A stretch of 64,000 bases of DNA from Gemmatimonadaceae bacterium (GTDB taxonomy: Bacteria > Latescibacterota > UBA2968 > UBA8231), in assembly GCA_026706075.1 (NCBI GenBank), contig JAPOZM010000007.1, positions 1-64,000 of the forward strand, in the 5' to 3' direction. Shown here one piece after another: positions 37,082 through 40,292 of this stretch. The notes below the pieces were generated by a model that searched no databases, was not told the DNA's origin, and worked only from the letters and a program-made list of their open reading frames with translations. Both the position numbers and the translations under genes were made by a program. Numbering within the stretch: position 1 is the first letter of the stretch; every line of letters begins with the position of its first letter.

Positions 37082-37109
37082 TTGACCCCTTCTCCACGGT
37101 GCCTACCTT
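37082..37109 (+). promoter_or_regulatory. Promoter candidate TTGACC-N16-TACCTT upstream of the TPP riboswitch
   Basis: -35-like TTGACC 37082-37087, -10-like TACCTT 37104-37109; riboswitch P1 begins at 37123. Confidence 0.4.
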
Positions 37110-37122
37110 GAGCCTACGACAT

Positions 37123-37202
37123 CCGTTGGGGGTGGCCGGCTCTCCGGCCTGAGATCAGAACCCTTCGAACCTGACCTGGATCATGCCAGCGTAGGGAAAC
37201 GG
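37123..37202 (+). ncRNA. TPP riboswitch (THI element) aptamer
   Basis: CCGTTGGGGGTGGCC...GGCCTGAGATCAGAACCCTTCGAACCTGACCTGGATCATGCCAGCGTAGGGAAACGG contains the conserved GGGGT, CTGAGA, ACCCTT.GAACCTGA, CTGGAT.AT.CCAGCGTAGGGA blocks; P1 CCGTT/AACGG. Confidence 0.95.
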
Positions 37203-37214
37203 ACCAGCGCCATC

Positions 37215-37255
37215 AGAGGCCGTTTCCCACGTCTGGAGAAAGCGGCCTCTTTCTT
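37215..37255 (+). terminator. Riboswitch-controlled intrinsic terminator
   Basis: AGAGGCCG (37215-37222) / CGGCCTCT (37243-37250) + TTCTT; 5' arm overlaps CCGTTTCCC (37220-37228), exact complement of aptamer 3' strand GGGAAACGG (37194-37202). Confidence 0.85.
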
Positions 37256-39622
37256 ATGCGCATCCTACCTTCCGGCGCCGCTCCGGCGCTGATCGCCTTC
37301 CTCCTCACAGCTGCCACCGTCCCGGCGGAGACGCTGCGCGGCACCGTCGTCGACGCGTCGACCGGTGATCCCCTGCCGGGCGCCCATCTGACCCACGGAG
37401 ACCTGGTCGTCACCGCCGACGCCGACGGCCGCTTCGAGTTGTCCCTGGCGGCGGGGGACTCGGCCTTGGTCACCCACGTGGGCTACGGGCCTGCCGTCGT
37501 CCGCCCACGCCCGGGGGCGGTGCAGCCTGTCACCGTGCGGCTGCTGCCGGCGGCCGTGCCCGTGCCCGAGACCGTGGTCACCGGCGGGCTGATCGAGCAG
37601 GCCCTGGCCGAGGTCGCCTCCTCGGTGACCGTCCTCGACCGGGGCCGCCTGGCCGATTCGGGCGGCGACCACCTCCACGAGCTGATCCCCGCCGTGGCCA
37701 ACCTCAACTGGTCCGGCGGCACCTCCCGGCCTCGCTACTACCAGATCCGCGGGATCGGCGAGCGCAGCCACTACGCCGGCGAGGGGCCGCCCAGCTTCTC
37801 CGTGGGATTCGTCATGGACGACGTCGATCTGAGCGGTCTCGGCATGGCGGGTCTGCTCCACGACCTCGACCAGGCCGAGGTCTTCAAGGGCCCCCAGTCA
37901 ACCCTCTTCGGCCCCAACGCCATGGCCGGGCTGATCAACCTGAGGTCCACCGATCCCGCCCCGACCGCGGGCGGGGAGGCGACCCTGGCCGCCGGCAGCG
38001 ACGGACTCCTGCGCTACGCCGGGACCGTGAACCTCCCGGCCGGCGAGCGGTGGGCGGCGCGGGTCGGCTACAGCTCCGGGCGCACCAATGGGTTCCGCGA
38101 GAACCGGCACCTCGGGATCGACGACTCCAACGGCCGCGAGGAGACGCTGGCGCGGGCCAAGGTGGCCTACGAGGGGGACGGTCTGCGCCTCGTGGGCACG
38201 CTCTTCCGCGCCGACCTCGACAACGGCTACGACGCCTGGGCGCCGGACAACAACGAGGACCTGGCGACCTGGTCCGACAATCTGGGCAAGGACAGCCAGA
38301 CGACGGACGCCCTCTCCCTGCGGGCCCGGGCGCCCCTGCCGGGATCCGGCGCCGAGCTGGTCTCCATCACCTCCTTCAGTCGCACCGACCTGGAGCACAG
38401 CTACGACGGCGACTGGGGCAACGACGACTTCTGGAAGCAGGATCCCTACGGCTTCGATCCGGAGGAGCAGGGCTGGAGCTACGACTTCTTCGACCGCAAC
38501 CTGAGGGAGCGCAGCACCTTCACGCAGGAGATCCGGCTGCGGAGGGAAGATCCCGCCGGCGGGGGCGGCCTGGTGGCCGGCGCCTACCTGAAGTCGCTGG
38601 CCGAGGAGGACGATGCCGCCGGGTACCTCTTCGGCGGCGACGCCACCGACCTGCAGAGCCGCTTCGAGATCTCCGATCTCGCCTTCTACGGCCAGTACGG
38701 CCGCGCCCTGTCCGGCCGCTGGCACCTGACCCTCAACGGCCGGGTCGACCGAAACGCTACCTCGTACGAGGGCTCCACCAACAACGGCGCCGAACAGGTG
38801 GAGTTCGACGTGGCCCAGTGGCTGCCCGGCGGCAAGGCGGCCCTGGCGTACCGGCCGGCGCCGGACCGCAACCTCTACGCGGCGGTCTCCCGGGGTTTCC
38901 GCGCCGGCGGGGTCAACCAGCATCCCCGGCTGGCGTCCGCGAGCCGGCCCTTCGACCCGGAGTACGTCCTCAACCTGGAGGTGGGATACCGCGCCTCGGG
39001 TCCGCGGACGACCACGGCCCTCACCCTGTTCCACGCCCTGCGCTCCGACCAGCAGGTCGAGCTGTCGAGCCAGCAGGACCCGGGGGATCCCAACAGCTTC
39101 TTCTACTTCACCGCCAACGCCGTGACCGGGCGCAGCACCGGCGTGGAGTGGGAGCAGAGCCTCCGGCTCCGGCCGGACCTGCGCCTCACCGCCTCCCTCG
39201 GCCTGCTCGACACCTATGTCGACACCTACACCTTCCCCATCGGCGAAGGGGAGGAGGAGAGCCTGGGCGACCGCGCCGGCGCCCACGCCCCGCGCTACAC
39301 CTTCCGCCTGGGAGGCGAGTACCGCCATCCCTCGGGCCTGGGGGCGCGCTTGGCGCTGAGCGGCGCCGACCGGTTCTACTTCTCCGAGAGCCACGACCAG
39401 GAGTCGGAGCCCTACCAGCTGGTGGACGCCCAGCTCTCCTGGGACCGTGGGATCTGGTCGCTGCAACTGTGGGGGCGGAACCTGCTCGACGCGCGCTACG
39501 CGGTGCGGGGCTTCTTCTTCGGCCTGGAGCCGCCCGACTACGCCGACAAGCTCTACAAGAGCTACGGGGACCCGCGCCAGGTGGGCCTGCGGCTGACGGC
39601 GCGGCTGCCGGCGGGGGACTGA
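37256..39622 (+). CDS. TonB-dependent receptor, predicted thiamine (or precursor) outer-membrane transporter
   Basis: Signal peptide, 'GTVVDASTGDPLPGAHLTHGDL' regulatory-like domain, 'PETVVTGGLIEQ' TonB box region, plug 'EVFKGPQSTLFGPNAMAGLINLRS'; downstream of TPP riboswitch. Confidence 0.9.
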   Translation: MRILPSGAAPALIAFLLTAATVPAETLRGTVVDASTGDPLPGAHLTHGDLVVTADADGRFELSLAAGDSALVTHVGYGPAVVRPRPGAVQPVTVRLLPAAVPVPETVVTGGLIEQALAEVASSVTVLDRGRLADSGGDHLHELIPAVANLNWSGGTSRPRYYQIRGIGERSHYAGEGPPSFSVGFVMDDVDLSGLGMAGLLHDLDQAEVFKGPQSTLFGPNAMAGLINLRSTDPAPTAGGEATLAAGSDGLLRYAGTVNLPAGERWAARVGYSSGRTNGFRENRHLGIDDSNGREETLARAKVAYEGDGLRLVGTLFRADLDNGYDAWAPDNNEDLATWSDNLGKDSQTTDALSLRARAPLPGSGAELVSITSFSRTDLEHSYDGDWGNDDFWKQDPYGFDPEEQGWSYDFFDRNLRERSTFTQEIRLRREDPAGGGGLVAGAYLKSLAEEDDAAGYLFGGDATDLQSRFEISDLAFYGQYGRALSGRWHLTLNGRVDRNATSYEGSTNNGAEQVEFDVAQWLPGGKAALAYRPAPDRNLYAAVSRGFRAGGVNQHPRLASASRPFDPEYVLNLEVGYRASGPRTTTALTLFHALRSDQQVELSSQQDPGDPNSFFYFTANAVTGRSTGVEWEQSLRLRPDLRLTASLGLLDTYVDTYTFPIGEGEEESLGDRAGAHAPRYTFRLGGEYRHPSGLGARLALSGADRFYFSESHDQESEPYQLVDAQLSWDRGIWSLQLWGRNLLDARYAVRGFFFGLEPPDYADKLYKSYGDPRQVGLRLTARLPAGD

Positions 39623-39626
39623 AGCA

Positions 39627-40292
39627 GTGGCCGGCCGCTCGGCGCTCATCGTCGGCAACGGCGAGCCCCCCTCGCGGGAGCTGTTCGCCGCCTGCGCCCG
39701 GGAGGCGGACCTGGTCCTGTGCGCCGACGGCGGCGCCGACACCGCCCGGCGCCTCGGACGGGCCCCCGACTACATCGCCGGCGACCTCGACTCGGTCAGC
39801 GGCCCGGGGATGGCCGCCGTCGCCGGGGACCGCCTCGTCCGCGTCGACGCCGACGACACGGGCACGGACATGCAGAAGGTTCTGCGGCTGGCCCTGGAGT
39901 TGGGGGTCGGCCGGGCGGACATGCTGGGCTTCACCGGGCGGCGCACCGACCACACCCTGTGGAACCTGAGCCTGCTGAGGACCTTCGGCGACCGGCTGGA
40001 CCTGCGGCTGATCGACGACCACTGCGAGATCCGCCTGATCCGCGGCCGGGTGCGCTTCCGCGCCGACGTGGGGCAGAAGCTCTCCCTGTGTCCGCTCGAC
40101 GGACCGGCCGGCGGCATCGAGACCGAGGGCCTGAGGTGGCCTCTGCGGGGGGAGAGCCTCGTCCCTGGCCGCCGCGACGGCATCTCCAACGAGGTCACCG
40201 CCAGCCCGGTGGAGATCCGGGTGGGACGCGGCGACCTGCTGCTCTGCGTGCAGCGGCAGAGCGCCTCGGGGCGGATCGAGCTGCTGGAGTAG
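39627..40292 (+). CDS. Thiamine pyrophosphokinase
   Basis: GTG start 4 nt after receptor stop; 'LVLCADGGADTARRLGRAPDYIAGDLDSVS', 'DDTGTDMQKVLRLALELG', 'TGRRTDHTLWNLSLL', 'GISNEVTASPVEI'. Confidence 0.92.
   Translation: MAGRSALIVGNGEPPSRELFAACAREADLVLCADGGADTARRLGRAPDYIAGDLDSVSGPGMAAVAGDRLVRVDADDTGTDMQKVLRLALELGVGRADMLGFTGRRTDHTLWNLSLLRTFGDRLDLRLIDDHCEIRLIRGRVRFRADVGQKLSLCPLDGPAGGIETEGLRWPLRGESLVPGRRDGISNEVTASPVEIRVGRGDLLLCVQRQSASGRIELLE

Follow-up and report, generated by a model that had tools for sequence, protein, structure and literature searches.

What does a TonB-dependent outer-membrane receptor import when its gene stands behind a thiamine pyrophosphate (TPP) riboswitch and just ahead of a thiamine pyrophosphokinase (TPK) gene, and does the cell have any other route to TPP? 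This arrangement occurs on the forward strand of the window, i.e. the whole stretch of 64,000 nucleotides of contig JAPOZM010000007.1 analysed here, and a sequence-only reading had taken it for a thiamine uptake operon, possibly in a host outside the Bacteroidetes; the host indeed belongs to the Latescibacterota, an uncultured phylum. Judging from its gene content and conservation, we consider it highly probable that the locus is a TPP-repressed thiamine salvage operon, which probably gives the cell its sole means of obtaining TPP.

A full-length TPP riboswitch aptamer (THI element) lies at 37118–37214 (+), where cmscan matched RF00059 over the entire model (positions 1–105) with 68.7 bits (gathering score 54.3; E = 5.9e-12), in clear agreement with the aptamer previously placed at 37123–37202. 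It is the single TPP riboswitch of the whole 5.62 Mb genome. The leader that follows is predicted to act as an expression platform whose folding competes with that of the aptamer, as two mutually exclusive helices can be drawn in it. In the first, a candidate antiterminator (37194–37228, +), GGGAAACGG (37194–37202), a segment sharing bases with the 3′ strand of stem P1 of the aptamer, pairs with its 9-bp perfect complement CCGTTTCCC (37220–37228), and the region 37190–37232 folds at −19.9 kcal/mol (z −4.6). The second is a candidate intrinsic terminator (37215–37254, +; −21.2 kcal/mol, z −4.0), formed by AGAGGCCG...CGGCCTCT and followed by TTCTT, whose hairpin (37215–37250) also contains CCGTTTCCC. 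When TPP is scarce, the antiterminator would form and break stem P1, allowing the receptor and TPK to be made; when TPP is plentiful, the aptamer would be stabilized and the hairpin freed, which would then either end transcription or mask the ribosome-binding site.

Of these two outcomes, termination of transcription is likely. A terminator-like hairpin was found downstream of the aptamer in 37 of 42 leaders from the phylum (shuffled sequences gave a mean of 9.5 and a maximum of 13), and in most related leaders it carries a good T-run (e.g. ACCGCT...AGCGG-TTTTTTT), which argues against a hairpin that governs the start of translation instead. Such translational control, which we regard as rather unlikely, is suggested by the imperfect T-tail of the window hairpin (UUCUU), for which a strict terminator scan made no call, and by the nearest GGAG upstream of the receptor ATG being held within the hairpin, although its distance of about 20 nt from the ATG is long for a Shine–Dalgarno site. 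A strict promoter scan found nothing. Elsewhere in the phylum, two loci (L075, G043:C51; L076, G044:C708) contain a LacI-family regulator gene between two TPP riboswitches, the second of which lies some 2.4 kb upstream and precedes this gene, and a LacI-like gene lies just 5′ of the lone riboswitch of G050 (L081).

The receptor gene (37256–39622, +; 788 amino acids) follows the aptamer, as had been proposed, and its product is a TonB-dependent receptor with CarboxypepD_reg, Plug (41 bits) and TonB_dep_Rec_b-barrel (104 bits) Pfam domains, preceded by a predicted signal peptide (37256–37330, +) with the hydrophobic N-terminus MRILPSGAAPALIAFLLTAATVPAE, recognized by inspection of the translation. 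Its AlphaFold model adopts the TonB receptor fold (pLDDT 85), and the nearest solved folds are those of FyuA (18% identity) and then PqqU, at 17–18% identity, a structural match that says nothing on the substrate. An ordinary siderophore or B12 receptor standing behind a TPP riboswitch by chance could take some comfort from this generic fold, from the siderophore receptor FyuA being its closest solved relative and from TIGR01783 (siderophore) being its best NCBIfam match, although this match, like all others in NCBIfam, fell below cut-off. We consider this explanation very improbable, given that the upstream riboswitch is kept with the receptor in three phyla and that the receptor is linked to, and co-occurs with, TPK. 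Escherichia coli BtuB, FepA and PqqU also fell outside the receptor clade in our tree, albeit with weak support and long branches, so that the clustering with siderophore or B12 receptors that the sequence-only reading had named as its refutation was not observed. The control by a TPP riboswitch across lineages and the link to thiamine genes instead suggest a receptor of the OMthi kind, and the protein is a predicted thiamine receptor. Within the phylum, the window receptor shares 62% identity with receptors of genus g3 but only 51% with receptors of g1, the genus to which it belongs; the genes neighbouring it are common to both g3 and g1 loci.

The conservation of the riboswitch reaches well beyond the Latescibacterota. 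The best 80 homologous receptor loci came from Latescibacterota, Neomarinimicrobiota and Gammaproteobacteria, with Latescibacterota receptors forming one supported group in the tree and gammaproteobacterial receptors another. Among the 63 loci from outside the Latescibacterota, a TPP core was found upstream by pattern in 58, and Rfam recovered three of the five that the pattern had missed, giving 61 of 63 under TPP riboswitch control; of the two left over, one begins at a contig edge. Three gammaproteobacterial operons (L193, L199 and L219, from Marinicella, Chromatiales and Lysobacterales) resemble that of the window in their TPP riboswitch and in a receptor about 40% identical, but differ in that the genes after the receptor encode a protein of the PnuT family and, in place of TPK, a ThiK-like kinase of the APH type. 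A small Thiamine_BP/YkoF-like protein precedes PnuT in these operons (weak matches, tested in two), and the kinase of L193 scored 78 bits against ThiK, below cut-off. The association with PnuT and a ThiK-like kinase is thus an independent pointer to thiamine. Among the 29 genomes sampled, TPK was present in 16 of 17 of Neomarinimicrobiota type versus one of 12 from Gammaproteobacteria, the other 11 being without it. In those 16 Neomarinimicrobiota-type genomes TPK is located elsewhere. In ten Neomarinimicrobiota loci (L232–L241) the gene immediately 3′ of TPK encodes a protein of about 450–480 amino acids, which Pfam identified as a sodium:solute symporter in both of the loci scanned; this symporter-like protein is a candidate inner-membrane thiamine transporter. 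An orthologue of it was rejected as the corresponding partner in Latescibacterota, as a profile search returned only family-level matches of about 140 bits, whether or not the genome has TPK.

The second gene of the window operon (39627–40292, +; 221 amino acids) encodes a thiamine pyrophosphokinase (thiamine diphosphokinase), as the sequence-only reading had recognized. It scored 124.5 bits against TIGR01378 (cut-off 76.4), has both Pfam domains (PF04263 and PF04265) over cut-off and carries the motifs GDLDS, TGTD and GRRTDH common to its relatives; its closest solved relative by sequence is 2OMK. Its GTG start at 39627 follows the receptor stop (TGA, 39620–39622) at exactly the 4 nt previously given. 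The operon is limited to these two genes, since the next gene, a radical-SAM gene (41247 to 40297), is convergent with it.

To place the operon in the metabolism of its host, we compared 64 Latescibacterota genomes, 25 of which make up the family of the window. Its own genome is a metagenome bin (about 96% complete, 9% contaminated), so that absences, which rest on family searches, are not absolute, yet they repeat across the 25 family genomes. A window-type receptor is present in 18 of the 64 genomes, and TPK in 17 of these 18 versus none of the other 46; in the exception (G044), the contig ends inside the receptor. Wherever the contig allows, the riboswitch lies directly 5′ of the receptor and TPK follows, an order that recurs across genera; in G040 TPK is located on a separate contig from the receptor, and in G058 the receptor is at a contig end. 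ThiC was found neither in the window's own genome nor in any of the 25 family genomes, and ThiE was likewise not found in the own genome, the family containing one borderline match (27.7 bits, G058). For ThiG, the family yielded weak partial matches only, that of the own genome (25.9 bits, profile positions 168–224) being assigned to another family because of its partial coverage. True ThiL, i.e. over the 184-bit cut-off, was not found in the 18 receptor genomes, which gave ThiL-superfamily matches of about 70–90 bits; the match in the own genome, at about 80 bits, was again attributed to another family. The earlier observation that no thiC, thiE or thiG gene lies nearby thus extends from the surroundings of the operon to the genome, and in the genome scan that it had recommended PnuT (PF04973) was not found either, in consequence of which PnuT was rejected as the inner-membrane partner of the receptor; neither this search nor the one with the symporter profile yielded an inner-membrane transporter. 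Riboswitches inspected in ThiC-bearing relatives precede thiC or a ThiG-containing cluster. Because ThiC, ThiE, true ThiG and true ThiL were not detected and TPK tracks the receptor, the host appears unable to make vitamin B1 and the operon is its apparent sole route to TPP.

These same genes bear on the substrate, for which thiamine or a precursor had originally been suggested. With ThiE and ThiL not found and TPK present, unphosphorylated thiamine is the parsimonious choice and a precursor less so. The TonB receptor would bind external thiamine and carry it across the outer membrane, an inner-membrane transporter would bring it into the cytoplasm, and TPK would pyrophosphorylate it to TPP. 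Import of a precursor (HMP or thiazole) or of a phosphorylated form in place of thiamine seems improbable to us. TPP riboswitches are known to control precursor transporters as well (PMC3766115), and precursor salvage does exist in the family, as indicated by G058, a genome without ThiC whose one TPP riboswitch precedes Thi4 and a ThiD–ThiN fusion (L089, G058:C16). The window's own genome, however, would lack both the ThiE needed to join precursors and the true ThiL needed to use thiamine monophosphate (TMP), TPK acts on thiamine, and the same receptor is paired in the three gammaproteobacterial operons with a ThiK-like kinase, i.e. a thiamine enzyme. A further conceivable variant is that TPP itself is imported and TPK serves as a backup.

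A different solution may operate in ten other ThiC-less genomes of the phylum (G053–G057, G016, G019, G025, G027 and G028), in which the TPP riboswitch precedes a different TonB receptor (loci L083, L085–L088, L094, L097, L099, L100 and L105). This second type is weakly similar to the window type in single-sequence searches, and the profiles of both align as TonB receptors. All ten genomes are without TPK and have ThiL over cut-off, although the counts of kinase by receptor type are not independent, as related genomes share history. From this combination of a riboswitch and TonB receptor with ThiL kept and TPK absent, a different vitamer may be proposed for the second type, and the simplest reading is that it imports TMP or TPP; alternatively, these genomes may use some other thiamine kinase. 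That the two receptors have specialized, the window type for thiamine and the second for TMP or TPP, is therefore offered tentatively, as a rather doubtful proposal. To our knowledge, a receptor that takes up a phosphorylated form of vitamin B1 would be new, and the swap of TPK for ThiL between the receptor types constitutes a natural experiment on the vitamer imported. In L083 and its relatives, genes for a FecCD permease and for a binding protein of the Peripla_BP_2 family (both assigned by Pfam in L083) lie about 7 kb 3′ of the second-type receptor gene, and an ABC-ATPase-like ORF accompanies them in L085, L087 and L088.

The closest precedents are published. In Bacteroides thetaiotaomicron, OMthi (BT2390), PnuT (BT2396) and Tnr3 (BT2397) are controlled by TPP riboswitches, and genetics supports their role in thiamine uptake, since a strain deleted for both OMthi and the biosynthetic operon needs about ten times more thiamine; in most gut Bacteroidetes the system is a single operon (PMC5613172). 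The window operon is like this system in gene content, with a TPP riboswitch, a TonB receptor and TPK, but unlike it in that PnuT is missing from operon and genome alike and in that its host, from another phylum, appears to have lost the biosynthetic pathway. The signature is therefore an established one, as previously stated, although it is not restricted to the Bacteroidetes: Caldithrix abyssi, a predicted thiamine auxotroph outside that phylum, has a TPP riboswitch, a BT2390-like receptor, a symporter and TPK at Cabys_3975–3977 (PMC5317091). The window locus shares with it the riboswitch 5′ of the TonB receptor and the presence of TPK, but is without the sodium–solute symporter.

An arrangement already published for Bacteroidetes and Caldithrix is thus found here in the Latescibacterota, for which our literature search returned no paper on thiamine salvage (searched as Latescibacteria). 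It provides a well-supported prediction of function for a clade of receptors that extends over Latescibacterota, Neomarinimicrobiota and Gammaproteobacteria, many of which have not been cultured. In this lineage, a TPP-riboswitch-controlled uptake operon appears to replace synthesis of the vitamin, and vitamin B1 auxotrophy is predicted for the whole Latescibacterota family, which bears on the choice of media for its cultivation.
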